A DNA stretch of 23,215 bases. It comes from a virus. The notes under the pieces were generated by a model, which was given only the letters and a program-made list of their open reading frames with translations, searched no databases and was not told the DNA's origin. A program made the translations under genes and the position numbers. The stretch spans positions 1 to 23,215 of IMG/VR virus record IMGVR_UViG_3300030060_004213. One strand, given 5' to 3'. This document shows positions 2,874 to 23,215 of this stretch, in pieces; position 1 is the first letter of the stretch; each line of letters starts with the position of its first letter.

Positions 2874-4306
2874 ATCCATTCTTTTAATTCTTCACCCATA
2901 ATTTCAGTTGCAATATTAATTTTTTTACGCAAAGCTTTTACAATCTTCTCATCAATCGTTTCTTCTGTCATGATGTCAATGTAAGTCATTGGTTTTTCCT
3001 GACCGATACGATCTATTCTAGCTTCTGACTGTTGTCTTTTTTCTAAATCATAACCATTTGAAAAATAAATCATTGTACTCGCAGCAGTCAATGTGATACC
3101 ATAGCCGCCGGTTTGTGTAGTTCCTACAAAAAATCTACACTTGTCATCCTCTTGAAACTTCTTTATATTATTTTGCCTTTCTTCTTGAGGAGTTAGACCA
3201 TAATAGTCTACAACAGATCCTTCACCATGTTTCTTTTTTATTTCTTTAATTATTCTTTGCACATCTTTTTGATAATGGGACCAGATCACAGCCTTACCTT
3301 CTACTTCATCTAGAATATCCATAAGTTCATCTACACGTCTTGATGGGATTTCTTGCACTGTGCCATCATCAGCAGTGAAATGACCGCAAGTAATTTGATG
3401 TAAACGCATTAACTGCACCATCACTGTAGACGTTGTAACTTCTTTACCATCTAGTTGTGCATACGCATACTTTTTCATTTCTTTGTAAACTTTTTCTTGT
3501 GGTCCTGTCATGGTCACCATACGTTTCATATAAGTTTTAGCTGGTAGATCTAAACAATCGTCTTTCAAAACTCTTTCTGAAAACGGTTGTATCTTAGCTG
3601 AAAGTTCACCTAAATTTCTGTATCCTACAACCACATTAACTGAACGTGCGCCCAGGTTAATTGTTTTCATAGCTGCATATCTAGCTCTAAAAGTATAATA
3701 AGAACTATGATCCAGGAGCCAGGGATCAAGAAAGGCACATTGAGCAAAGAGATCTAATGGCGAATTAGTAACAGGAGAACCAGTTAAGATTCTTCTGTAT
3801 TTAGCATACTCACGTAGCCCTACAATATTTCTGGTTCTTTTGGCTGTAGGAGTTTTGATTGTTGTAGATTCATCTATAGCCATCATCGCTTTATGTGATG
3901 ACAAAAATCTACGAGCAAATTCTTTTCCAAAGTCGTAAGAGAACGCTTCAACGTTCATAATTAATACGTGAAAGTCTGTACCAGTTTCAAACAAAACATT
4001 TAATTTTTTTGTTTGCTCACCTGACTTGTCAGAGCTTTTCCACAATACCATTTTCTTTTCAATATGGTCTGGTAGGTGTTTAGGAATTTCAGACTCGTAC
4101 CAGTTTTTATATACACCTTTAGGAGCTATTAATAATAGCCCATTTATATCGCCTTTATCATAAAGCATAGCGCAATTGTCTATTAATACTTTAGATTTAC
4201 CTGTACCCATTTCCATGAAATAGGCAAAATTTTCTTGCTCCCAAGAACGTTCTAAAGCTTTGAGCTGATGCGCATAAGGCTTCGATTTAAATTTATAGTT
4301 TATCAT
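2870..4306 (-). CDS. SNF2-family DEAD/DEAH-like ATP-dependent helicase
   Basis: This 478-residue superfamily 2 helicase has all the expected blocks. The Q-like region is near residues 10-16, Walker A is GTGKS at 34-38, motif II is IDEST (D-E-S-T replacing DEAH), and motif III is LTGSPVTNSP. In the second RecA-like domain there are VIWSHYQKD (motif IV), GTTQTGGYGITLTAA (motif V) and QQSEARIDRIGQ (motif VI). The SEARIDRIGQ block is characteristic of SNF2/RapA-like translocases. Phage proteins of this class are thought to remodel DNA during replication or recombination; no target is visible here. It is transcribed opposite to the surrounding genes, from a gap shared with the replication block, and has its own sigma70-like promoter. 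Length is typical for a compact phage SNF2 protein. Confidence 0.93.
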   Translation of the reverse strand: MINYKFKSKPYAHQLKALERSWEQENFAYFMEMGTGKSKVLIDNCAMLYDKGDINGLLLIAPKGVYKNWYESEIPKHLPDHIEKKMVLWKSSDKSGEQTKKLNVLFETGTDFHVLIMNVEAFSYDFGKEFARRFLSSHKAMMAIDESTTIKTPTAKRTRNIVGLREYAKYRRILTGSPVTNSPLDLFAQCAFLDPWLLDHSSYYTFRARYAAMKTINLGARSVNVVVGYRNLGELSAKIQPFSERVLKDDCLDLPAKTYMKRMVTMTGPQEKVYKEMKKYAYAQLDGKEVTTSTVMVQLMRLHQITCGHFTADDGTVQEIPSRRVDELMDILDEVEGKAVIWSHYQKDVQRIIKEIKKKHGEGSVVDYYGLTPQEERQNNIKKFQEDDKCRFFVGTTQTGGYGITLTAASTMIYFSNGYDLEKRQQSEARIDRIGQEKPMTYIDIMTEETIDEKIVKALRKKINIATEIMGEELKEWI

Positions 4307-4357
4307 TTACTTATCTTTCTAATAATGTATATATAGGATGAAAGAGATAAAGTCAAT
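4307..4357 (-). promoter_or_regulatory. Divergent promoter region; minus-strand sigma70-like promoter for SNF2 helicase
   Basis: On the minus strand TTGACT (4356-4351) is followed after exactly 17 bp by TATATA (4333-4328), a good -35/-10 pair, about 20 nt before the helicase ATG. The gap also holds TATAGGAT (4332-4339), one copy of the motif found in most regulatory gaps of this window. The plus-strand gene at 4358 has a purine-rich leader (AAAGAGATAAAG) that may act as its ribosome site, but I see no clear plus-strand promoter. Confidence 0.6.
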
Positions 4358-4723
4358 ATGCAATTTAAAAATCATCCCAAAGAGACTAAATCAAAAGTCT
4401 ATTTAATTCAGGAAATACCAGGTACTTCTAAAGGTGAACCTAAATATAATATTTTAGGGGCACAGAAATATGGCGATATCGTGACAATGCTACCAGAATT
4501 TTCGCAAATGATTCTATCTCCAGGTCCTTTAATTCACAAACTTAGAACTCTTCTAAAAGACTATAATTCACATGATTATCTTTTATTATCAGGAGATCCT
4601 GCAATCATAGGTGTAGTATGTTCAATTGTGGCAGACACAACTAATGGTAGATACAAATTATTAAAGTGGGACCGTCAAGAAAAAACTTATTATCCAATAG
4701 AAATAAATATACATCACAAATAA
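4358..4723 (+). CDS. Conserved phage protein of unknown function
   Basis: This 121-residue soluble protein is of mixed alpha/beta composition, with no signal peptide or membrane span. Recognisable stretches are YLLLSGDPAIIGVVCSIVAD near the middle and GRYKLLKWDRQEKTYYPIEI near the end. It is the first gene rightward from the divergent promoter and precedes the replication genes. A similar short protein is, as I remember, common at the head of replication modules in uncultured marine phages, without a known role. It could be a small regulator or host-takeover protein, but nothing in the sequence shows this. Confidence 0.75.
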   Translation: MQFKNHPKETKSKVYLIQEIPGTSKGEPKYNILGAQKYGDIVTMLPEFSQMILSPGPLIHKLRTLLKDYNSHDYLLLSGDPAIIGVVCSIVADTTNGRYKLLKWDRQEKTYYPIEINIHHK

Positions 4724-4724
4724 G

Positions 4725-4752
4725 TTGACAACAAAAATTTTATCCCTATATT
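4725..4752 (+). promoter_or_regulatory. Strong sigma70-like promoter of the replication operon
   Basis: TTGACA at 4725-4730 and TATATT at 4747-4752 are separated by 16 bp. The consensus match is 6/6 and 5/6. It lies in the 76-bp gap before the 185-residue gene, which also has a good ribosome site (AAGGAG, 4789-4794). A degenerate copy of the ATCCTATA motif (TATCCCTATA, 4741-4750) overlaps the -10. Confidence 0.75.
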
Positions 4753-4799
4753 GTTTTTAATAAACTAAGATTAGATTAATAAAACAATAAGGAGTAAAA

Positions 4800-5357
4800 A
4801 TGAAAGACATTAATCTCAGACAAGATGCACCCTCTCAGGTGTCACAAGTAAATCCACAAAAAATCTCGGAAGAGATTTCCAAACTACAAGCTGTTCAGCA
4901 AGAAATTCTTAACAAAGAAAATGAAATAAAAGAATTAAAAAATAATGAAAATTATATAAGCGGGGTTGTTATCCCTGACTTGATGGCAGAGTTAAATTTA
5001 AAATCTATGAAGCTAGCAGATGGATCTGAAATATCTGTTGGCAATAAATATTTCGCTTCAATCAAAGCTGATAAAAAAGAAGAAGCGTATGACTGGCTTC
5101 GTACTGCTGGCCTAGGCGATATTGTGAAAAACGAAATCACAGTTCGGTTTGGCAAAGCTGAAGATAACAAGGCAATGGCTTACGCTACCCTTGCAAAAGG
5201 ACAAGGTTATGATCCGGAACAAAAAGTTTCAGTTCATGCCTCAACCCTTAGATTAACTTTGGAGGACTTTCATTCACGTGGTGGAAAAATTCCTCCGGAG
5301 TTATTCAACACGTTTGAAAAAAATCAAACGCAAATTAAAAACAAACCAAAACAATAG
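4800..5357 (+). CDS. Conserved phage protein of unknown function (early/replication block)
   Basis: This 185-residue protein has an N-terminal coiled coil (about residues 20-50, rich in K, E, Q, N) and then a conserved-looking globular part containing VVIPDLMAELNLKSMKLADG and ITVRFGKAEDNKA. I recall proteins with the same core (ISGVVIPDLM..., DGS.I.V, GD.IKN, F..GED.KA) in many podo- and siphoviruses, where they sit just upstream of replication genes and lack an assigned function. The start is secure: AAGGAG lies 5 nt upstream of the ATG and a strong promoter lies immediately before. It is probably co-transcribed with the next gene, 24 bp downstream. Confidence 0.8.
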   Translation: MKDINLRQDAPSQVSQVNPQKISEEISKLQAVQQEILNKENEIKELKNNENYISGVVIPDLMAELNLKSMKLADGSEISVGNKYFASIKADKKEEAYDWLRTAGLGDIVKNEITVRFGKAEDNKAMAYATLAKGQGYDPEQKVSVHASTLRLTLEDFHSRGGKIPPELFNTFEKNQTQIKNKPKQ

Positions 5358-5381
5358 ACTAACAAATCAATAGGAGGATAT

Positions 5382-6152
5382 ATGGATAGTCAAGTAGCAA
5401 CAAAGACCAATGCAGGTGCATTGGCAACAATCAATCTCAGAGCAGACTCTGGTAAAGGTGCAGAGGAAATTAAGTCGGACGATGTTTCAACTCCGATCTT
5501 AAAAATCCTACATCAACTTTCTCCAGAATGTAATGAGAGAGACGCTAAACACGTAGCGGGTGCAAAACCAGGGATGATATATTCATCAGGTTTTGGATCT
5601 CTCATTGAGAGCAACAAGGGTCTAGATGTGGTGATAGCTCACGCACAGACTAGATATCCTGAATGGCAAGAGAGAGGCGATAGTGCTTCTGCTCCTGTTG
5701 GAACTCACATCGATATTCCAGCTGATGCTAAAGAAGAAAAGAATGGTAGATATAGATTACCTAATGGTAACTATGTTGAGAAGACAGCTTACTTCTATGT
5801 GTTGGCAATAACAGATGGTGAAGTTAAACCAGCGGTCATTCCAATGAGATCGTCAAATCTTTCTCCAGCAAGAGAACTTAACAATATGATCAAGAATCTT
5901 AGATTCTCAGATGATAAAGGTTCTTTCAATCCTGCATCTTTTGCAGCAGTTTATAATTTAAAAACTGTTGGCAGAACTGCGGGCAGTAAAAGCTGGCATG
6001 TCTACAAACCATCAAGAGTAAGAAATCTTGATGTCAGTAATAAAGACGATGCATCGTTGTATGAAGTTGCACAACAACTTCAAAAAACTGTATCTAAAGG
6101 TGCAGCAAAACCAAAATATGATGCGCCTAAAAATACTGGAGACATCGTATAA
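5382..6152 (+). CDS. Conserved replication-block protein, possible ssDNA-binding or recombination accessory protein
   Basis: This 256-residue soluble protein has a strong ribosome site (AGGAGG, 5372-5377). The N-terminal 45 residues are low in structure. The core contains PILKILHQLSPECNERD, GMIYSSGFGSLIES, a WQERGDS segment and VIPMRSSNLSPAREL. The C-terminal 30 residues are lysine/alanine-rich. Position between an early operon leader gene and the primase fits a single-strand-binding or annealing role, as for similarly placed abundant proteins in other phages. I see no OB-fold signature, so this stays an inference from context. The gene ends 70 nt before the primase ATG, with a hairpin in between. 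Confidence 0.75.
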   Translation: MDSQVATKTNAGALATINLRADSGKGAEEIKSDDVSTPILKILHQLSPECNERDAKHVAGAKPGMIYSSGFGSLIESNKGLDVVIAHAQTRYPEWQERGDSASAPVGTHIDIPADAKEEKNGRYRLPNGNYVEKTAYFYVLAITDGEVKPAVIPMRSSNLSPARELNNMIKNLRFSDDKGSFNPASFAAVYNLKTVGRTAGSKSWHVYKPSRVRNLDVSNKDDASLYEVAQQLQKTVSKGAAKPKYDAPKNTGDIV

Positions 6153-6181
6153 TAGAGTTACCGTGGAGTAACACTTGCGAG

Positions 6182-6213
6182 AAGGGCGTGGAAGCGAGAG
6201 TGGAAACGCCCTT
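6182..6213. promoter_or_regulatory. Hairpin in the primase leader
   Basis: AAGGGCGT (6182-6189) and ACGCCCTT (6206-6213) are perfect 8-bp complements around a 16-nt loop, G+C-rich in an A+T-rich context. The structure ends 9 nt before the primase ATG at 6223, so it would sit in or next to the ribosome-binding zone. It lacks a T-run, so a classic terminator is unlikely; a translational control element is possible. Confidence 0.5.
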
Positions 6214-6222
6214 AATAAAGAT

Positions 6223-7851
6223 ATGGAAGAATTTAAAAAGTATTTTACAGGATTAACACGAGACTTTGGTTTTTGTAATGTAGAGAATGGTTACATAGAT
6301 GAGAACTCAGGTAAATTAAAGATTGACCCAGGCGATTATGGCTGGGCTCACAGAGCAATATCAGACGAAGATTATCAAAAACATTTAGACGGCAAAGTAT
6401 CAATAGGACTACAACCTTGTGATGATGAAGGCACTTGCTCATTTGGAGCTATAGATGTAGATCCAAAAGATTATTCTGACTACAACCTAGGAAAATTTTT
6501 AAAAGTTATAGACGATAAAAAATTACCTGTCATACCAATCAAATCTAAAAGCGGTGGACTACATGTATATATTTTTACAAAAGAAAAAGTACCTGCAACA
6601 TTAATAAGAGAAGTATTACAAAATTTATTATTCCTGTTTGGTCTATCATCTAAGACTGAGATATATCCTAAACAAACTAAACTAGGTAAGAATCAAAATG
6701 GAGAGAAGACTGTAGGTAGTTTTATAAATCTACCATACTTTAAGACAACAGAACGTAGAGCTCTTAAACCTGATGGTTCTCCAATTGAATACAAAGATTT
6801 TTTAGAAGTCGTCAAAGTTAACTTACAAACAAAAGACTCATTAAAAGAATTAATAAATAAAAAAGTAAATGATGAATTAAAAGGTGGACCTGACGATTTA
6901 AAAGACGGACCACCATGCTTACAGGTTATCTGTAAACAGGTCCAGGAATCAGGCACCAAATTAAAAGATGAAAGAGATAGATTTTTATTTAACTACATGG
7001 TCTTTTGTAAAAAGAAATATCCAGAGTCTTGGGACAAGAAAGTATTAGAAGCAGCTAGAGATTATATACAGTACGATGAAATATGGGGTGATGAGAAAGT
7101 AAAAGAAAAAATAAAATTTTGGAAAAAAGATACCGCAGGTCATACTTGTTATGACTTACCTATCTCCGCATATTGTGCAAAGGGTGTATGTATTAAAAGA
7201 AAATTTGGTATAGGAAGTAACAGAGATACACACTGGCCACAACTTTCAAATTTAATTAAAATAACTTACAGACCTGAACCAGAATATTTTTTTGATGTAG
7301 AACTTGGAAACAACGATGTAGTACAGGTGCACGCAAAGAACATAAGTCGTATGGATGAAGTAAAACAAATGCGTAAGTTAGTTGCAGATAGTACAAGTAT
7401 CTTTCCACCAATAATAAAACAGAACGAGTTTCAAAAAATTCTTGAAGGATTATGGGCTACTAAAAAAGATATGCCACCACCTATAGGAACTAACCCTATA
7501 GAAATTTTAAAAGAAGCTCTGATAGAATATGTAAACGGACCAGAAGCAACCACTAACACTGCATTTGAAAGTGGATCAGTATTAATCGAAGATGACTATT
7601 ATTATTTTATATTTCAAAAGTTTTATGAAGAACTTAAACGAGGTGACTGGACTCAAAAAAGAGATAGGACAGCTCACTTAATTCGCCAACACTTCAAGGG
7701 AGACTTTGACTGTAAGAAAAGATTTCCCAAAGGCGATAACAAAGAATCTTTTCCACAACTCAGAGTATTAAAACTACCAGTAGAAGGATTAGAAAGAGAA
7801 GAAACACCAGACGAAAAAGTAGAAATAGAAGACAAAAAGGAGATAGTATGA
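6223..7851 (+). CDS. Archaeo-eukaryotic-type primase (TOTE-type AEP domain) with C-terminal primase/helicase-like region
   Basis: This 542-residue protein, from the ATG chosen here, would synthesise primers for the phage polymerase. The first half matches the AEP domain of TOTE-type proteins: FGAIDVDPKDY supplies the metal-binding pair D78/D80, and SKSGGLHVYIF supplies H114. Between and after these come the YGWAHRAI entry segment and FINLPYF. The second half is helical and contains a Cys/His-bearing stretch (HTCYDLPISAYCAKGVC), possibly metal-binding. An upstream TTG at 6175 stays in frame but would translate through the leader hairpin, so ATG 6223 is preferred. The stop overlaps the next gene (ATGA). 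The primase lies upstream of the UvrD-like helicase and PolA in the same operon. Confidence 0.82.
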   Translation: MEEFKKYFTGLTRDFGFCNVENGYIDENSGKLKIDPGDYGWAHRAISDEDYQKHLDGKVSIGLQPCDDEGTCSFGAIDVDPKDYSDYNLGKFLKVIDDKKLPVIPIKSKSGGLHVYIFTKEKVPATLIREVLQNLLFLFGLSSKTEIYPKQTKLGKNQNGEKTVGSFINLPYFKTTERRALKPDGSPIEYKDFLEVVKVNLQTKDSLKELINKKVNDELKGGPDDLKDGPPCLQVICKQVQESGTKLKDERDRFLFNYMVFCKKKYPESWDKKVLEAARDYIQYDEIWGDEKVKEKIKFWKKDTAGHTCYDLPISAYCAKGVCIKRKFGIGSNRDTHWPQLSNLIKITYRPEPEYFFDVELGNNDVVQVHAKNISRMDEVKQMRKLVADSTSIFPPIIKQNEFQKILEGLWATKKDMPPPIGTNPIEILKEALIEYVNGPEATTNTAFESGSVLIEDDYYYFIFQKFYEELKRGDWTQKRDRTAHLIRQHFKGDFDCKKRFPKGDNKESFPQLRVLKLPVEGLEREETPDEKVEIEDKKEIV

Positions 7852-8549
7852 CGCAAAAAGTACCAAGCATATGCATATCGTTACCTGCGTACGATCAAAT
7901 GCATGTTTCAACCTGTTTATCTTTGTTAAAATTATTTGATAAGTTTACCAAAGCTAAAATAAAAACAACAATAAATACATTTAAATGTCCATACATTGGG
8001 TATGGCAGAAACGTATTAGCAGCATTATTTTTAAACTCAGGGTTTGATTATCAATTGTTTGTAGATGCAGATGTAGAGTTTGAACCTGAAGTTATAGGTA
8101 GGATGATAATATCAGAAAAAGATTTTATCTGCTGCCCATACAGAAAGAAAACACCAGACAACTCTGTTAAGTATTCAGTTAACTTTGAAGATCATGAGAA
8201 TATAAATATAGATAGCAAAGGTGTATGTGAAATTAAAAGAGGACCGGCAGGTTTAACTTTAATACATAGAAAAGTTTATGAACAGTTAATGGCTAAACAT
8301 CCTAATCTACAAATTAAAAACCATAGTTCTATACCTGAAGCTGCAGCTAAATATCTTTACAATTTTTGGGAGACAGAATTTAAGGACGGTATTTGGATTG
8401 GTGAGGATGTAAAATTTTGTGATTTAGCGAGGGAAGCTGGATTTAAATTTCATGCCATAGTTGATGGAGAAACAGTCCACCATGGAAACATGGGTTATAA
8501 AGGAAAATTAGTAGACACATTTAAAAAAGCTAATGGCAAAGATAACTAA
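7848..8549 (+). CDS. GT-A fold glycosyltransferase
   Basis: This 233-residue protein begins with a beta-strand CISLPAYDQMHVSTCLSLL, followed by the metal/nucleotide-sugar DxD motif at residues 73-75 (FVDADVEFEP). IKRGPAGLTLIHRKVYE and IGEDVKFCDLAREAGFKF, then a C-terminal HHG, complete a pattern seen in small viral GT-A enzymes. The predicted reaction is transfer of a sugar from a nucleotide-sugar donor. The acceptor is unknown: phage DNA, a phage protein or host surface glycan are all possible. It is embedded between primase and helicase, overlapping both neighbours (4 and 17 bp), so it is expressed with replication genes. I see no hydroxymethylase or base-modification enzyme in the window to supply a modified base. 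Confidence 0.82.
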   Translation: MTQKVPSICISLPAYDQMHVSTCLSLLKLFDKFTKAKIKTTINTFKCPYIGYGRNVLAALFLNSGFDYQLFVDADVEFEPEVIGRMIISEKDFICCPYRKKTPDNSVKYSVNFEDHENINIDSKGVCEIKRGPAGLTLIHRKVYEQLMAKHPNLQIKNHSSIPEAAAKYLYNFWETEFKDGIWIGEDVKFCDLAREAGFKFHAIVDGETVHHGNMGYKGKLVDTFKKANGKDN

Positions 8550-9969
8550 AATTTTTGGTCCACCTGGTACAGGTAAGACCTACCGATTACTTCAAAGGGT
8601 AAGAGCATATGTTCGAACTGGTACTCCATATCACCAGATTGGATACTTTGCTTTTACTAAAAAAGCCTCTGGGGTAGCGCGTGATAGGGTGGGAGTATCG
8701 GAAAAACAAGTTCCATACTTCCAAACTATCCATGCGTTTTGTTTTCATCTCCTGAATATGAACGAGGAACAGATTATGCAACCCTATAATTATGAAGAGA
8801 TAGGAAAAAAATTAGGCATACGTGTAAATTTTTCTGACAAATATAATGAAGAGCAGACGCATTATTTAACTTGTAACAATCCATATTTTCAGATGATAGG
8901 TAAAGCTATTAACCTGGACATAGATATAAAAGAATTATTTAACAAAAACGAACATGACAGGAAAGTTATTACCTGGGGTCCATTAAAAAATATTTCTAGA
9001 TATTTAAAAGATTATAAAAAAATAAATGAACTTATGGACTTTAACGATTTAATTAAAACTTTAATTGAAAAACAAGACAAGATACCAAAACTAAAAGCTA
9101 TATTTATTGATGAAGCACAAGACCTATCTCCACTACAATGGAAGTTAGTTGATATATTAAAAACTAAAACTGAACATTTATATTTAGCTGGCGATGATGA
9201 CCAAGCTATCTATGCTTGGGCTGGAGCTGATGTAAATAGATTTATTACAGAACCTGGTAGAGAAATTATTTTAAAACATTCAAGAAGAATATCAAAAGCT
9301 GTACAGCAGCAATCAGAAATACCTATTAGTCGTATAGCAGGCATCAGGAAACATAAAAAATATTTACCAAGACCAGTAGAAGGGTCAGCTCAACACATAA
9401 ATAATCTAGGTCAGGTGAACTTACATGAAGGTAACTGGTTAATTTTATCTAGGACTAAAAGTAATTTACTTTCAATTATGGAAGAACTTAGACGTAAAAA
9501 TTTATACTATCAAAGTAATAAGGGTAAAAGTTTTACAGTTGGAATTTATAACGCTGCAGTAGCTTATACAAAATGGAAAATAGAAGAGTCATTAGAAGAG
9601 GCAGAAATAAATGACATTAGAGATTATATACCTAATGCAAAATTTTGGAATAAAGATAAAGAATGGTATGATGTATTTACTGCAGCGCCACACAAAGAAG
9701 TTTTATATATTAGAAATATGTTAGCAGCAGGGGAAAAATTAAGTGGTAAAGCTAGAATATTTGTTTCTACAATTCATGCAGCAAAAGGTGGTGAAGAAGA
9801 TAATGTAATTTTATCTTTACATCAAAGCGGTAAAGTTCAGAAAGGAATTAAACAAAGTGTTGACAAACAAGACGAAGAGCATAGAGTGTGGTATGTGGGC
9901 ATTTCAAGAGCAAGAAATAATCTATATAAATTAAAAGCTAAAAAAGTAATAAAGGAATATAAACTATGA
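8533..9969 (+). CDS. UvrD/Rep-like superfamily 1 DNA helicase
   Basis: This 478-residue ATP-dependent 3'-5' type helicase has Walker A GPPGTGKT (9-16), motif Ia IGYFAFTKKA, motif Ib-like FQTIHAF, Walker B DEAQD (193-197), and motif III LAGDDDQAIYAWAGA. The C-terminal RecA domain has FVSTIHAAKGGEEDNVIL (motif V region) and EEHRVWYVGISRARNNL (motif VI). It is shorter than bacterial UvrD (about 720 residues), consistent with loss of parts of the 1B/2B subdomains. It presumably unwinds DNA ahead of the PolA enzyme, because no DnaB-like helicase is present here. The start overlaps the glycosyltransferase end by 17 bp, and the stop overlaps the DUF3310 gene (ATGA). Confidence 0.93.
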   Translation: MAKITKIFGPPGTGKTYRLLQRVRAYVRTGTPYHQIGYFAFTKKASGVARDRVGVSEKQVPYFQTIHAFCFHLLNMNEEQIMQPYNYEEIGKKLGIRVNFSDKYNEEQTHYLTCNNPYFQMIGKAINLDIDIKELFNKNEHDRKVITWGPLKNISRYLKDYKKINELMDFNDLIKTLIEKQDKIPKLKAIFIDEAQDLSPLQWKLVDILKTKTEHLYLAGDDDQAIYAWAGADVNRFITEPGREIILKHSRRISKAVQQQSEIPISRIAGIRKHKKYLPRPVEGSAQHINNLGQVNLHEGNWLILSRTKSNLLSIMEELRRKNLYYQSNKGKSFTVGIYNAAVAYTKWKIEESLEEAEINDIRDYIPNAKFWNKDKEWYDVFTAAPHKEVLYIRNMLAAGEKLSGKARIFVSTIHAAKGGEEDNVILSLHQSGKVQKGIKQSVDKQDEEHRVWYVGISRARNNLYKLKAKKVIKEYKL

Positions 9970-10214
9970 CAGACAAAGATATATTTAAAGAATCATTTCC
10001 GCAATATACTCAGGTAGGCGGGAATCACTACACTAAGTTTCCAATACAGCCTTACGAATTTATTTCAAAAAATGATCTTTCATTTTTTCAGGGGAACGTT
10101 GTGAAGTACGTTTGTAGATATCAAAGAAAAGGAGGTATCGAAGATCTTAAAAAGATAGTACATTATTGTCAATTAGAAATGTTGAAATTGAAAGATGGAA
10201 GAAAAAATAAGTAA
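9966..10214 (+). CDS. DUF3310 family small protein
   Basis: This 82-residue protein has the DUF3310 signature: GGNHYTKFPIQPYEFI near the start, then FFQGNVVKYVCRYQRKGGIEDLKK, and a final helix with H-Y-C. The family is widespread in tailed phages near nucleotide metabolism and replication genes. It is sometimes labelled nucleotide-kinase-like, but its activity is not established. It is co-translated with the helicase (ATGA overlap) and overlaps the following small gene by 20 bp. Confidence 0.88.
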   Translation: MTDKDIFKESFPQYTQVGGNHYTKFPIQPYEFISKNDLSFFQGNVVKYVCRYQRKGGIEDLKKIVHYCQLEMLKLKDGRKNK

Positions 10215-10416
10215 CAATAGAATATTAACTATTCATGCTGAATGGTTACGAAATAATGGATTTATAAAACAAGCTGATGAGTGTCTTAACCAAGCAAAAC
10301 TATATACTGATGAGCGTCAAGTAAACGGAAGGAAAAAATATGAAGCTACCAACTTACATGCAAGCTCAAACAGAATGGGTAATGCATACAGAATACCCAG
10401 ACTTAAGAGAGCATGA
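10195..10416 (+). CDS. Small conserved protein of unknown function upstream of PolA
   Basis: This 73-residue basic protein has a helical first part (ILTIHAEWLRNNGFIKQADE) that looks coding and, as I remember, recurs in marine phages beside DUF3310. It overlaps DUF3310 by 20 bp at its start and the polymerase by 77 bp at its end. The last 25 residues are therefore read out of frame through polymerase codons and are low in pattern. The ribosome site is weak. The N-terminal two-thirds is more trustworthy than the tail. Confidence 0.6.
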   Translation: MEEKISNNRILTIHAEWLRNNGFIKQADECLNQAKLYTDERQVNGRKKYEATNLHASSNRMGNAYRIPRLKRA

Positions 10417-12274
10417 AGAAATAGCTATCGACCTTGAAACAAAAGATACAGGTTTAAAATCATTAGGGTCAGGTGCAGTTGTAGGACGTGGAGAAGTTGT
10501 TGGGATAGCTGTAGCTGTTGAACACGGTAGTTGGTATTTTCCTATAGCTCACGCAGAAGGTCCAAACTCTAATCGAGAAAAAACTTTAGAGTGGTTTAAA
10601 GATATTTTAAATTGTCCAGCTACAAAAATTTTTCATAACGCTATGTACGACGTATGTTGGATACGTAAATTAGGCTTAAATATCAATGGTTTAGTGGTAG
10701 ATACAATGGTTGCATGTTCACTCCTAGACGAGAATAGATTTTCTTACACACTCAATACTTTGTCATGGCATTTTTTAAACAAAGGTAAAAATGAAAAGTC
10801 ACTTACTGAAGCAGCTAAGTCAAGAGGACTAGATGCAAAAGCTGACATGTGGCAGTTGCCTGCAAGTGAAGTTGGAGCTTACGCTGAAAAAGATGCAGAG
10901 TTAACTTTTGAACTTTGGCAGCATGTAAAAAAATTAATTGTTGAAGAAGATATACAAGATATTTTTAATCTTGAGACAGATCTTTTTCCTTGTTTGGTTG
11001 ATATGCGTTTCCTAGGGGTGCGGGTAGACGTTGAAGCAGCCAATCAATTAAAAAAAGAATTAACCACCAAAGAAGAATTGCTACTACACCAAGTGAAAAA
11101 AGAAACAGGAGTAGACACTCAAATATGGGCTGCAAGATCGATTGCAAAAGTTTTCGATAAATTAAATTTACCTTACGATAAGACCGAGAAAACAGAGTCA
11201 CCTTCATTTACAAAAAATTTCCTTTCTAATCATCCACATCCTACAGTGCAATTAATAGCACAGGCTAGAAAAATAAACAAGGTCAATACAACTTTTATAG
11301 ATACAATATTAAAACATGAGCATTGTGGTAGAATACATGCGGAGATAAATCAAATAAGATCTGATGACGGTGGTACAGTAACCGGAAGATTTTCATATCA
11401 GAATCCAAACCTACAACAAATACCTGCAAGAGATCCAGATACAGGTCCACTAATTAGAAGTTTGTTTATACCTGAGGAAGGTATGAAGTGGGGATGTTTT
11501 GATTACTCGCAACAGGAACCAAGACTTGTTGCACACTATGCATTAAGATTTGGTTTATCTTCTGTAAATCAAATTGCAGATTCTTATGACTCAAATCCTA
11601 AAACAGATTTTCACCGTATCGTAGCAGACATGGCAGAGATACCACGTAGTCAAGCTAAAGTAATTAATCTAGGATTGTTTTATGGAATGGGTAAAGCAAA
11701 GCTACAGGCAGAGTTAGGTGTATCAAAAGACAAAGCTTCTGCGTTGTCAGAAAGATATCATACTCGTGTACCATTTGTAAAACAGTTGATGAATAAATTA
11801 ATGAACGCTGCATCTAGCAAAGGTAAAATAAAAACTTTACTTGGTAGAAGATGTAGGTTTCCAAAATATGAACCTGTCTTACGTGGTGATGACTGGGGTA
11901 AATATGTACCTGCAGAAGATCATGAGAGAATGTTAGAGTTACAACAAATGGGACCAACACTCCTAGACGAAAATGGTAATGACACAGGTAAGAAAAATTA
12001 TTGGCATAACAATGCAGCAAGAAGAGCATTTACATACAAAGCATTAAATAAATTAATTCAAGGTAGTGCTGCCGACATGACAAAGAAAGCTATGTTAGAT
12101 TTATGGAAAGAGGGCATCACACCACATATACAAGTACATGATGAACTTGATATATCAGTGACCAATGATTTAGAGGCTGCAAAGATAAAAGACATTATGG
12201 AAAATGCAGTTGACTTAAAGATACCTAATAAGGTAGACTATGAATCGGGCCCAAATTGGGGCTCAATAAAATGA
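10340..12274 (+). CDS. polA: DNA polymerase I (family A) with 3'-5' exonuclease domain
   Basis: This 644-residue replicative polymerase has an N-terminal DnaQ-like exonuclease: IAIDLETK (Asp/Glu pair), FHNAMYDVCWIRKLG and YAEKDAELTFELW. The polymerase domain has motif A CFDYSQQEPRLVAHYA, motif B RSQAKVINLGLFYGMG (residues 436-451) and motif C HIQVHDELDIS. There is no 5'-3' exonuclease domain, which is normal for phage enzymes. The position equivalent to E. coli Phe762 is leucine (L444), a variant known in marine viral PolA proteins and linked to altered speed and fidelity. AAGGA before the ATG supports the start. It works with the upstream primase and UvrD-like helicase. Confidence 0.96.
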   Translation: MKLPTYMQAQTEWVMHTEYPDLREHEEIAIDLETKDTGLKSLGSGAVVGRGEVVGIAVAVEHGSWYFPIAHAEGPNSNREKTLEWFKDILNCPATKIFHNAMYDVCWIRKLGLNINGLVVDTMVACSLLDENRFSYTLNTLSWHFLNKGKNEKSLTEAAKSRGLDAKADMWQLPASEVGAYAEKDAELTFELWQHVKKLIVEEDIQDIFNLETDLFPCLVDMRFLGVRVDVEAANQLKKELTTKEELLLHQVKKETGVDTQIWAARSIAKVFDKLNLPYDKTEKTESPSFTKNFLSNHPHPTVQLIAQARKINKVNTTFIDTILKHEHCGRIHAEINQIRSDDGGTVTGRFSYQNPNLQQIPARDPDTGPLIRSLFIPEEGMKWGCFDYSQQEPRLVAHYALRFGLSSVNQIADSYDSNPKTDFHRIVADMAEIPRSQAKVINLGLFYGMGKAKLQAELGVSKDKASALSERYHTRVPFVKQLMNKLMNAASSKGKIKTLLGRRCRFPKYEPVLRGDDWGKYVPAEDHERMLELQQMGPTLLDENGNDTGKKNYWHNNAARRAFTYKALNKLIQGSAADMTKKAMLDLWKEGITPHIQVHDELDISVTNDLEAAKIKDIMENAVDLKIPNKVDYESGPNWGSIK

Positions 12275-16785: not shown

Positions 16786-17432
16786 TAAGTGGTGATAGTT
16801 TAGAGTATAGTCTACTAGCTAAATGGACTGATCAATTGAATGTAATGTCAACTGATTTTATAACTACACTGGAGATAGGAGTGCGGGAAGGTTATAGTTC
16901 TCATGTTATATGTGAAACAATCAAACAACCACACGTCCATATTGGTATAGATCCGTATGGAGATATTGACTACAAACATATCGATCATAAAGAAGGATTC
17001 GTTGCATACTGGATAGATGATAACAAACAACCTATAAAAAATGCTGATGGATCTTTTAAACGGCCCACCTATCCTAATTCAATGAAAGAAACTTTTAATA
17101 AAAATTTTGAACACCACCAGAAAACAGTCCTATTCCAACTAGAAGATACAGAATACATGAATGCTTTTGGTAATGGTGTACCCATTTATCACAATGGTAA
17201 AAAGAAATTAGTAAACCAATATGATTTAGTTTTCTTCGATGGGCCTCACACAACAGAAGCTGTGATGAGAGAAGCAACCTGGTTTGCCAATAGGAGTCGT
17301 AAGGGCACGCGTTTTATATTTGATGACATCGATACTTATCGAATGGATATGATAGCTCACGCATTAACTTTCGATGGATTTAAAACAATCGAAACAGGAG
17401 ATACTAAAATATGCTTGGAGAAACAGAAATAG
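16782..17432 (+). CDS. Class I SAM-dependent methyltransferase-like protein
   Basis: This 216-residue protein has a Rossmann-type glycine motif (TTLEIGVREGYSSHVI), a second strand with an acidic end (HIGIDPYGDIDY), and a characteristic YDLVFFDGPHTTEAV followed by GTRFIFDDIDTYRMD. These fit the Methyltransf_24 type of class I methyltransferases. The substrate is unknown; related enzymes often act on sugars or small molecules rather than on DNA, and no DNA-methylase NPPY/DPPY-type motif is seen. The start is GTG at 16782 (overlapping the previous stop), and the end overlaps the homing endonuclease gene by 22 bp. Confidence 0.8.
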   Translation: MISGDSLEYSLLAKWTDQLNVMSTDFITTLEIGVREGYSSHVICETIKQPHVHIGIDPYGDIDYKHIDHKEGFVAYWIDDNKQPIKNADGSFKRPTYPNSMKETFNKNFEHHQKTVLFQLEDTEYMNAFGNGVPIYHNGKKKLVNQYDLVFFDGPHTTEAVMREATWFANRSRKGTRFIFDDIDTYRMDMIAHALTFDGFKTIETGDTKICLEKQK

Positions 17433-17836
17433 CCTACATTGCTGGGCTGTTTGATGGTGAAGGTAGTATTCACATCAAACGAGGATGGGAAAAGAAAAAG
17501 AAACACAAAGGAAAACCGGGTTATCGTATGTCTAATAGTATGCGATTATCTATGGAAATAACAATGACTGATAAGTCTGTACTCCTATGGGTCCATGAAG
17601 TGTTAGGAGTTGGGACGCTAACTGACAAGCCGCGTAAGGGTAAACGGGTTGATGGTACTCCGTATTTAAAACAATACAGATGGCGCTGTACATTTAGAGA
17701 CGCGTATTACGTGTGTCTATTACTGTGGCCTCACGCCCACACCAAACTAGAAAAAATTAATCAAGTCATTGCTCATTACGATAATCAAAAGGCTAAAAAC
17801 ATAGTTAGCTTAGATGAATATAGAAAGGTTAACTAA
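17411..17836 (+). CDS. LAGLIDADG-type homing endonuclease, free-standing
   Basis: This 141-residue protein has one LAGLIDADG-type motif near the N-terminus (YIAGLFDGEGSIHI, residues 9-22) with the acidic catalytic position at E17. The usual alpha-beta-beta-alpha fold follows, and a lysine-rich patch (WEKKKKHKGKPGYRM). A single motif means it should act as a homodimer, cutting a long asymmetric site. No intron or intein boundary is visible around it, so it is free-standing. It overlaps the methyltransferase gene by 22 bp and the next gene by 1 bp, and so fits the operon tightly. It might instead have been adopted for a phage function. Confidence 0.87.
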   Translation: MLGETEIAYIAGLFDGEGSIHIKRGWEKKKKHKGKPGYRMSNSMRLSMEITMTDKSVLLWVHEVLGVGTLTDKPRKGKRVDGTPYLKQYRWRCTFRDAYYVCLLLWPHAHTKLEKINQVIAHYDNQKAKNIVSLDEYRKVN

Positions 17837-18784: not shown

Positions 18785-19069
18785 ATGGTAGCCAAGAAAT
18801 CAAAATATAAATCTGTTATAATTAAAAAGAAGCGATACTACTTCTATAAAATAACGTGGGTTGATCCGACAGGTGATAGCGGACATGCAACAGCTCATGA
18901 CTCATTAGGTTTAACACCTTCAGTTATGATAACTCATGCGTATCTGTTTGATCAGAATAAGAAAAACATTTGGACCTTTGGCACCTATGAAGATAATGAT
19001 GATTTGTTTTCGGATAGGAATGTTTTTCCAAAAGGATGTATTGTTAAAATGGAAAAGGTTTTAGTTTGA
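18785..19069 (+). CDS. Conserved phage protein of unknown function
   Basis: This 94-residue beta-rich basic protein opens with lysines (MVAKKSKYKSVIIKKKRYYF), then YKITWVDPTGDSGHATAHD and TFGTYEDNDDLFSDRNVFP. It looks like a compact small-barrel fold with aromatic residues. The ATG has no clear ribosome site. It ends 9 bp inside the end of the convergent TerS gene. Homologues are familiar from marine phages but have no assigned role; a nucleic-acid-binding domain is possible from charge only. Confidence 0.7.
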   Translation: MVAKKSKYKSVIIKKKRYYFYKITWVDPTGDSGHATAHDSLGLTPSVMITHAYLFDQNKKNIWTFGTYEDNDDLFSDRNVFPKGCIVKMEKVLV

Positions 19070-19576
19070 TTTATCTTTCAGCAGTTCTGGTTGCTGTCTT
19101 ACTTTTTCTTTCAATTCTTCTTCAGAGACTCCCTCCAGGAGCGGAGAATAGTCGTCGATTATTTTTTTCATTCGCGATTCTAACTCTTCTGTTGTTAAGT
19201 CTTCTAGTTTACCAGTACGTATTATCTTCTGCTCAATATATAGACCTGCAGCTTTTCCGCGTGCAACTTCAGCGTTGACAGCTGCTGACCACGCTCCTTT
19301 TTTAAGAGCTTCTTGTCTAATCTTACTAAGCTCTGCGATATGTCTATCGTAAGTGACTTCATATTTCTTTTGCCACTCCTCTCTCAAAGTTCCAATGTAT
19401 TGTACTACGAGCGGGTATAGGGTTGGATTTTGTAACTTGCTTGCGTATTGTCTAGCTGAGTCTTTACTAAAACCTGCATCGATAGCACATTCTGTTGCTG
19501 TCTTCCTACCTTCGTTGGTGACAAGTTCGTATGCAAATCTCATCTGTTGCTCTGTTAATTTTTTTGGTAAACCCAT
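19061..19576 (-). CDS. Terminase small subunit (TerS-like)
   Basis: This 171-residue protein, from ATG 19576 (a TTG six codons upstream is part of a promoter -10), resembles the Terminase_2 family. LTEQQMRFAYELVTNEGRKTATE, in its ATECAIDAGFSKDSARQYA part, is the N-terminal helix-turn-helix that binds packaging DNA, and LQNPTLYPLVVQYI follows. A long coiled coil (about residues 65-120) would form the oligomerisation ring. TerS recognises the pac/cos site and recruits the large subunit, which is not in this window. It is on the minus strand, divergent from the 74-residue gene, and convergent with the gene at 18785. The start region suggests a leaderless mRNA. Confidence 0.83.
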   Translation of the reverse strand: MGLPKKLTEQQMRFAYELVTNEGRKTATECAIDAGFSKDSARQYASKLQNPTLYPLVVQYIGTLREEWQKKYEVTYDRHIAELSKIRQEALKKGAWSAAVNAEVARGKAAGLYIEQKIIRTGKLEDLTTEELESRMKKIIDDYSPLLEGVSEEELKEKVRQQPELLKDKSN

Positions 19577-19578
19577 AC

Positions 19579-19607
19579 TTGATATATAATACAACTTAGA
19601 CTATATT
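19579..19607 (+). promoter_or_regulatory. Divergent promoters; plus-strand promoter for a leaderless gene
   Basis: On the plus strand TTGATA (19579-19584) and TATATT (19602-19607) are separated by 17 bp. The ATG at 19615 starts 7 nt after the -10, so transcription would begin at the ATG. On the minus strand TATTAT (19591-19586) lies 9 nt before the TerS ATG, with only a weak -35. Both starts would lack a 5' leader. Confidence 0.6.
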
Positions 19608-21590: not shown

Positions 21591-21836
21591 AAATGAGGCA
21601 AGAATAAGGCAAGGACCAAAATAAATTTGTGGATAACTTAAATTATTTTCTTGACGTATCCTAAATTATCCTATACACTTGGACGGTGGCTGGGGATGGT
21701 GGTTAGTGTATATAATAAAAAATCTACATTAGAACCATTCTAAACTGGACCATACAACTACAGGTTGTGCGCAGGAATAGGACTTGACAAGATATTAGAT
21801 ATAGGATAGTCTGGGATACAGAAAGGAAAAAACACT
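21591..21836. other. Intergenic regulatory region upstream of the right-end genes
   Basis: These 246 bp contain a DnaA-box match, TGTGGATAA (21628-21636), and a promoter TTGACG (21651-21656) with TACACT (21674-21679) at 17 bp, overlapped by ATCCTATA (21668-21675). They also hold TTAGAA/TTCTAA (21729-21734, 21738-21743), the CATACAACTACAGGTTGTG repeat (21751-21769), and a second TTGACA (21784-21789) next to TATAGGAT (21800-21807). No coding frame is credible. Transcription from 21651 would make a long leader of about 150 nt before the gene at 21837. Confidence 0.6.
21751..21769. repeat. 19-nt repeat, copy 1
   Basis: CATACAACTACAGGTTGTG is repeated exactly at 23046-23064. A third, diverged copy shares CAGGTTGTGCGC at 23103-23114. 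Each contains a small inverted repeat (ACAAC...GTTGT, or CACAA...TTGTG). Confidence 0.8.
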
Positions 21837-22387: not shown

Positions 22388-22420
22388 TTGACAGGGTATC
22401 CTATTTAGTATAGGATACCC
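22388..22420 (+). promoter_or_regulatory. Promoter with an 11-bp perfect inverted repeat spanning the -10
   Basis: TTGACA (22388-22393), 17 bp, TAGGAT (22411-22416). The spacer and -10 lie inside a perfect inverted repeat: GGGTATCCTAT (22394-22404), loop TTAGT, ATAGGATACCC (22410-22420). A repressor bound there would cover the promoter completely. The ATG at 22426 is 9 nt after the -10 and 5 nt after the repeat, with no ribosome site. The repeat could also end the upstream gene's transcript, but no T-run follows. Confidence 0.75.
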
Positions 22421-22650: not shown

Positions 22651-22803
22651 ATGGACTATAATTTAATAATGTATATTGGAGTAGGATTAATGGTTGGAGG
22701 CTTTGGATTGTTTCTATTCTCTGAAATGAAGATTAGAGAAATAGATCGTAAGATGGCAGAGAACCAAAGGTTTATTGATGCTATGTTAAGAGTTAAAAAA
22801 TAA
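22651..22803 (+). CDS. Small single-pass membrane protein
   Basis: The 50-residue product has a transmembrane helix near the N-terminus (YIGVGLMVGGFGLFLFSEM) and a helical charged tail (REIDRKMAENQRF). GAGAGGA lies just upstream. The ATG directly follows the preceding stop. Such short bitopic proteins are common early phage products that act on host membrane processes; there is no evidence for the target. The sequence looks coding. Confidence 0.62.
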   Translation: MDYNLIMYIGVGLMVGGFGLFLFSEMKIREIDRKMAENQRFIDAMLRVKK

Positions 22804-22807
22804 GGGG

Positions 22808-22836
22808 TTGACAATGTTAGATTTATCCTATATGAT
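22808..22836 (+). promoter_or_regulatory. Near-consensus promoter for the leaderless gene at 22844
   Basis: TTGACA (22808-22813) and TATGAT (22831-22836) are 17 bp apart. ATCCTATA (22825-22832) overlaps the -10. The ATG at 22844 follows the -10 by 7 nt, so transcription should start at it. Upstream in-frame TTG and ATG codons lie inside the promoter and are unlikely starts. Confidence 0.75.
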
Positions 22837-22843
22837 ATGGGAT

Positions 22844-23026
22844 ATGAAAACAGAAGAAAGAAGAAATAGATTCACAGGTGAACGTGAGTTTTTAACAAAG
22901 GAAGAAGCTGACATACATGACAGCGTCTTTTACCATGAAGCACTCGAGCAGTGGGACAAGATGCAGAAGGCGTTGGATAAGTTTAGTCGTCTTAATCCAA
23001 AGGCCTATATGACTTTGTTAGATTAA
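22844..23026 (+). CDS. Small helical early protein
   Basis: From ATG 22844 the product is 60 residues: RFTGEREFLTKEEADIHDSV, then FYHEALEQWDKMQKALDKFS, and a final RLNPKAYMTLLD. It is acidic and helical, with no membrane span. The start was chosen because the promoter's predicted transcription start coincides with it; longer in-frame starts (22808, 22814, 22832) fall within the promoter. Unknown function; similar small acidic helical proteins in phages often act on host regulators. The stop is followed at once by the right-end hairpin chain. Confidence 0.65.
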   Translation: MKTEERRNRFTGEREFLTKEEADIHDSVFYHEALEQWDKMQKALDKFSRLNPKAYMTLLD

Positions 23027-23114
23027 TAGTTGTATGTAATAAATGCATACAACTACAGGTTGTGGCGAGGCTAACTCAACGCGTGGGCTGGCGCCACAAT
23101 CACAGGTTGTGCGC
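23027..23114. promoter_or_regulatory. Chain of overlapping, mutually exclusive hairpins
   Basis: Five segments pair in series. A TAGTTGTATG (23027-23036) pairs with B CATACAACTA (23046-23055). B's ACAAC (23049-23053) pairs with C's GTTGT (23059-23063). C TTGTGGCG (23060-23067) pairs with D CGCCACAA (23092-23099). D's CACAA (23095-23099) pairs with E TTGTG (23107-23111). Thus A:B with C:D excludes B:C with D:E. The B-C part contains the second copy of the 19-nt repeat. The remaining 23115-23215 shows only A/T-rich palindromes. Confidence 0.6.
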
Positions 23115-23152
23115 GGGGCATAGAGGTACCAGAGCCATTATCGATTTTGAAA

Positions 23153-23171
23153 TTTTTTAAAAAAGCTTTTT
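23153..23171. other. A/T palindromes near the window end
   Basis: TTTTTTAAAAAA (23153-23164) and AAAAAGCTTTTT (23160-23171) overlap, followed by CTTTTTTT. This could be a weak bidirectional terminator or a flexible, easily melted stretch. No gene is seen in 23115-23215, and the window ends here. Confidence 0.35.
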
Positions 23172-23215
23172 CTTTTTTTACAAAAAGGGGTCCCAGATCA
23201 AACACTTTATGCTAG

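Follow-up and report, generated by a model that had tools for sequence, protein, structure and literature searches.

The row of hairpins at the right end of the window, by which we mean the whole 23,215-nucleotide stretch of viral DNA analysed (IMG/VR record IMGVR_UViG_3300030060_004213), is one lineage's form of a variable hairpin block that stands beside a conserved site preceding terL, the gene for the terminase large subunit. From left to right, this site comprises one or more hairpins, a first box (box1, AGRGGTMCCA), a gap of 63 to 65 bp, a second box (box2, AGGGGTCCCA), an AT-rich tract with a TTGATT-like hexamer and terL. We consider it likely that the hairpin block belongs, as its left arm, to a functional site in front of terL; whether that site would be of the packaging type (pac or cos) is, judged from its sequence features, an evenly balanced question. 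The hairpin and the boxes also occur in integrated elements of SAR11 genomes that resemble phage satellites. A first-pass annotation had interpreted the hairpins as alternative structures with riboswitch or attenuator logic, an interpretation that we reject with high confidence.

Relatives show that terL lies just beyond the right edge of the window and starts about 250 bp past the stop codon of the last small gene. The best named match of this terL is Pelagibacter phage HTVC027P (81.5% identity), and HTVC023P (61%) is also among the nearest; by these similarities, the window is assigned to an HTVC023P-type pelagiphage, of which it is a fragment. The last small gene before the site (22844..23026, top strand, 60 amino acids from ATG 22844) has homologues in 80 loci; in many of these the alignment begins only at residue 14-17 of the longer frame, in favour of the start at ATG 22844. 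It is preceded on the same strand by a predicted sigma70-like promoter, TTGACA-17-TATGAT (22808..22836, 11/12 consensus matches). A BLASTN search of the window end (22800-23215) against phages gave no match, and a relaxed search with 23110-23215 returned one meaningful match, HTVC027P; the hits of a 14-mer scan, judged by their contexts, were mostly chance matches. No tRNA was found in the window. Another promoter sequence, TTGACA-17-TAGGAT (22388-22420), overlaps an inverted repeat of 10-11 bp (GGGTATCCTA..TAGGATACCC) and therefore coincides with a possible operator or hairpin, and a LAGLIDADG homing endonuclease-like gene (Pfam PF00961) occupies 17411-17836.

The hairpins are real. The five short segments described in the first-pass annotation are present on the top strand, together with the four pairings A:B, B:C, C:D and D:E that it had proposed, and its pair counts hold. 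Segment A (23027..23036, TAGTTGTATG) is the 5' arm of hairpin A:B and covaries with B (23046..23055, CATACAACTA), which provides the 3' arm of that hairpin and the left half of a palindromic word. Segment C (23058..23067, GGTTGTGGCG) is both the right half of this word and the 5' arm of hairpin C:D, with D (23092..23101, CGCCACAATC) as its 3' arm, and segment E (23105..23114, GGTTGTGCGC) is the right half of a second palindromic word. A:B has 10 perfect base pairs (12 with one G.U) and C:D has 8 (10 with one G.U), while B:C and D:E have 5 Watson-Crick pairs each, extended to 7 by G.U pairing in B:C and by one G.U in D:E. None of 1000 dinucleotide shuffles reproduced the chain of four successive pairings, and only one of 1000 contained a 10-bp stem. 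Between the stop codon and box1, the sequence has a folding energy of -38.9 kcal/mol (z about -5), is more stable than all 578 sampled 95-nt windows across the contig and has a G+C content of 52%, compared with 35% for the contig.

An RNA switch toggling between A:B with C:D and B:C with D:E would share with attenuators and riboswitches the chain of overlapping complementary segments, which in the window sequence lies far above chance, and two relatives (L222 and L239) keep all four pairings, B:C being marginal in L239 (+0.3 kcal/mol). The mutually exclusive structures of such regulators are of comparable stability, whereas here the first set reaches -24.7 kcal/mol and the second -6.8, a gap of about 18 kcal/mol, and the probability of B:C in the ensemble is 0. 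In a riboswitch both structures would also covary. Among seven distinct relatives, 98.2% of the cells of the A:B and C:D set pair and four pairs have changed on both sides, a result reached by 0 of 500 shuffles; B:C shows zero both-side changes and does no better than its own shuffles. The arms in this alignment were excised by hand, which biases the rows toward structure, but the contrast between A:B and B:C is independent of this. Compensatory changes, which the first-pass annotation would have taken as support for a switch if present in all four pairings, are thus seen in A:B and C:D and not in B:C. Homologues that break the pairings also exist. In L144, TAGTTG/CAACTA has become TAGGTG/CACCTA (T-A to G-C), a change that preserves A:B but, with C unaltered, disrupts B:C. 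Arms are lost in most relatives: A:B is absent in 7 of the 19 sequences examined (L157, L224, L235, L176, L171, L172 and L181), and E is missing in many, namely L130, L219, L223, L225, L226, L227 and L234. Rfam searches in both modes gave nothing relevant at gathering score, with one unrelated match elsewhere (E=1.5). Unlike known attenuators and riboswitches, the block has an alternative set that is unstable and unconserved, and it lies 3' of a gene, with a separate promoter-like region following at a distance of about 100 bp. A switch is therefore extremely improbable. Two alternatives that the annotation had offered more cautiously fit better: a gene does follow past the edge, namely terL, and the hairpins flank a site that would act at the DNA level.

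The apparent alternative pairings arise because a palindromic word, CAACYNYAGGTTG, is repeated back to back. B:C and D:E both derive from this recurring word and were correctly recognised in the annotation as copies of one repeat (ACAACTACAGGTTGTG / ACAATCACAGGTTGTG, 88%). C and E are copies of ACAGGTTGTG, which with its left half gives the 13-15 bp palindrome; palindromes and hairpins placed side by side automatically give rise to successive pairings that are alternatives to one another. What looks like an RNA switch can thus result simply from palindromes stacked next to a DNA site. A third copy of the word (CATACAACTACAGGTTGTG) lies at 21751..21769 (top strand), with a TTGACA promoter following after about 20 bp, a placement that is also seen in relatives. 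Among palindromes of its form in the noncoding DNA of the family, CAAC-N5-GTTG ranks second in frequency, after AAAA. The word is absent from the noncoding DNA of HTVC027P and HTVC023P, and is therefore not essential to the group. Two adjacent palindromes at 21729-21769, TTAGAACCATTCTAA and ACAACTACAGGTTGT, stand just 5' of the TTGACA promoter and recur as a pair in relatives. We also considered mobile hairpin-tip modules, and discarded them as the tip sequences were found solely at homologous places.

Box1 (AGAGGTACCA, 23122..23131, top strand; supported by 46 distinct homologues) and box2 (23186..23195, same strand; from the homologue alignment and a pattern scan) form a twin-box site whose spacing is far more constant than its surroundings suggest: it is 64 in 23 and 63 in 19 of the 46 distinct homologues (42/46), in a region with a mean pairwise identity of 57%. 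The boxes lie about 60-120 bp before terL; from box2 to the start of terL, close relatives have about 110 bp and most others 60-110 bp. A scan of IMG/VR with the twin-box pattern, made without using terL and allowing a spacing range 17 wide, matched at least 120 contigs. The spacing was 63-65 in 95 of the 116 distinct matches listed, and terL followed on the same strand within 1.5 kb in 103 of these 116. Conversely, the twin box was found in 63 of 102 distinct regions upstream of terL, the other 39 failing the box expressions, and in diverged relatives (psg01, HTVC023P and others) the boxes are altered or single. HTVC027P and the window, the latter a fragment, have one twin box each. A host origin of the twin box was considered and dismissed: only 2 of 397 Pelagibacteraceae genomes contain it, one in a putative satellite and one in a phage contig with terL.

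The hairpin belongs with the boxes and not with the small ORF. Nearly every twin-box locus has a strong inverted repeat 5' of box1, whichever gene precedes. It keeps this place in loci with other genes inserted behind the small gene (L267, L279, L280, L282, L285 and L286), and it is absent where another gene directly follows the small gene (L218, L237, L238 and L240). In the 79 sequence clusters compared, the 85 nt preceding box1 fold at -26.9 kcal/mol on average, against -13.4 for control stretches, and 62 of the 79 fold at -20 kcal/mol or below, against 13% of control windows. Of 120 distinct hairpins, 64 have loops of the types c(TNC)g or c(TNNC)g and one has a loop of the reverse types, c(GNA)g or c(GNNA)g; these counts include related sequences, and c(TNC)g alone occurs 18 times among 48 cluster representatives. 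In 37 U-tract terminators of the same contigs, the corresponding numbers are 3 and 4. The hairpins therefore constitute an oriented and distinct class. On the bottom strand, the loops read c(GNA)g and c(GNNA)g, which are unusually stable loops in single-stranded DNA. The window's own two hairpins lack them; within its clade, L130 has the small-loop class and others have replaced it. HTVC027P has only a weak hairpin at this position.

The site is also present in two putative satellites integrated in SAR11 genomes, clearly and without terL in one and in diverged form in the other. The first (L440, isolate AH-326-M17; G008:C1:146000-165000, reverse-complement 3690-10672) is a 6.9-kb element within a 221-kb host contig, bounded by a 56-bp direct repeat of the 3' half of tRNA-Thr. 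It encodes a tyrosine integrase (Phage_integrase, confirmed by Pfam) and a DUF5906 protein, and carries the hairpin and twin box near its left end, with no terL. The second (L449; G103:C3:243000-260000, 4297-10788) is a related element at tRNA-Asn with its own 56-bp repeat, an integrase identified by its similarity to that of L440 and a DUF5906-protein homologue 74% identical. Its hairpin, GCCTCGGCC-TTC-GGCCTCGGC, is followed by a diverged box1 (AGTGGTGCCA, differing at 2 of 10 positions); a standard box2 was not found, nor any top-strand ORF of at least 25 amino acids within about 590 bp behind the site. An attachment-type repeat at a tRNA gene and an integrase, as expected of satellites, are thus found in both. 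A further twin box with the standard 64-bp spacing lies at 1847-1920 of L441 (G007:C21), from a Pelagibacteraceae single-cell genome, upstream of a run of pilin-like (FTLIELLVV) genes and with no att repeat recognised. The hairpins of L440, L449 and L441 have in common a TC/TC internal loop and have TAC, TTC or TGTT as loops. A protein search for satellite relatives in IMG/VR found none.

Our preferred reading is that the whole site acts at the DNA level, as a terminase recognition or initiation site of the pac or cos type. The twin boxes would bind a packaging protein, for example the small terminase, with the adjacent inverted repeat serving as a structural or insulating element; in the lineage of the window, this arm would consist of the two hairpins able to form together, A:B and C:D. 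As in pac and cos sites, the boxes are adjacent to a terminase gene and, in the genomes checked, in single copy, and the conserved spacing, the position before terL, the oriented hairpin and the presence in putative satellites all count for this reading. Against it count the promoter-like character of the region 3' of box2, the weak hairpin of HTVC027P, the altered or single boxes of diverged relatives, and the diverged box1 and missing standard box2 of L449. Contig ends were considered as a trace of a physical terminus, but they scatter within terL and are uninformative; that they mark no genome end at the site also counts against a packaging role. The small terminase subunit gene itself is found at 19061-19594 on the bottom strand, about 3.4 kb before the twin box; the usual order has terS and terL as neighbours.

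Two other readings compete with a packaging site for the same evidence. The hairpins could mark the end of an operon, A:B and C:D terminating or stabilising transcripts from the 22808 promoter and insulating the terL control region from early transcription, by termination without a U-tract or by protection of the 3' end. The hairpins of the window begin directly after the stop codon, form its most stable 95-nt stretch and follow closely upon a strong promoter. A:B and C:D covary, and on the top strand of the window clade G.U cells number 13 and A.C cells 2, a hint at RNA that weighs against a site acting as DNA. This asymmetry, tried as a sign of RNA-level selection across the family, holds in the window clade and fails in the family, where the top strand is the more stable in 29 clusters and the opposite strand in 44. 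A U-tract terminator does occur in L247 and L252, where the small gene faces another gene and not terL. With intrinsic terminators the block shares a G+C-rich stem soon after a stop codon, but the site in the window has no U-tract, T is less frequent than any other base downstream of the main stem in the 79 clusters (128/632), and the loop class is unlike that of the U-tract terminators of the same phages. The lack of a U-tract and of a top-strand advantage argues against an ordinary intrinsic terminator and against top-strand selection at the RNA level. Moreover, the hairpin stays with box1 and not with the ORF where a different gene directly follows the small ORF, and satellites retain it without any upstream phage gene. 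An operon-end role is thus unlikely, if still worth serious consideration.

The twin boxes could instead be activator or operator sites of a terL promoter, with the hairpin and the CAACYNYAGGTTG palindromes as further protein-binding sites. The distance from box2 to the TTGATT-like hexamer is constant at about 28 bp, with TAAAAT about 16 bp beyond the hexamer, the boxes are about six helical turns apart, and the palindromic word precedes a TTGACA promoter in relatives. Yet the site has one copy per genome examined while late genes make up more than half of the genome, no ORF follows it in L449 over the distance given above, and HTVC027P and HTVC023P do without the palindromes; we regard such a late-promoter module as quite improbable. 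The papers on this phage group PMC12753301 and PMC9599517 make no mention of promoters, terminators or a packaging site, and the HTVC027P transcriptome paper contains no discussion of promoters or terminators, its reads being public (PRJNA1253180). Neutral or selfish REP-like palindromes accumulating in a tolerant gap would account for the extreme turnover of the hairpin sequences, for the abundance of CAAC-N5-GTTG and for the 5-nt core of ACAACTACAGGTTGT being inverted in place between L171 and L176, but not for a strong hairpin in nearly every lineage, linked to box1, with oriented loops and kept in satellites. This origin is hardly credible.

Returning to a packaging site, carriage of a helper's cos or pac site by satellites is an established packaging route (PMC6092414), and the SAR11 elements probably carry the site so that the phage packages them. 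Like the sites of cos-type SaPIs and EcCICFT073 (PMC6092414), ours is a short noncoding site near terminase genes that is also present in an island with integrase and replication genes and without structural genes; here, no sequence relation to them is shown, and terS is distant and on the other strand. PICMI of marine vibrios (PMC10803314) share with L440 and L449 a size of about 6-7 kb, an integrase and a replication gene, the lack of capsid genes and a marine host, but their hosts are Vibrionaceae, and AlpA was not identified in L440 or L449. The packaging site of PICMI could not be identified (PMC10803314), while a shared site is visible in the SAR11 elements.

Few biological entities in the sea are as abundant as SAR11 and its phages. 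With a fixed, searchable site common to phages and integrated elements, phage satellites of SAR11 can be looked for directly and paired with their helper phages. More tentatively, we propose that the hairpin and twin box may be an undescribed packaging signal of HTVC023P-type phages, built on an oriented DNA hairpin with c(GNA)g or c(GNNA)g loops on the bottom strand and hijacked by tRNA-integrated SAR11 satellites; if so, elements of the L440 type would belong to the first phage satellites to be recognised in SAR11. In two further SAR11 genomes (L450, around 8933, and L454, around 8374), box2 followed by GCTTGATTTA lies near tRNA-Met, without box1, and these loci are possible satellite remnants.
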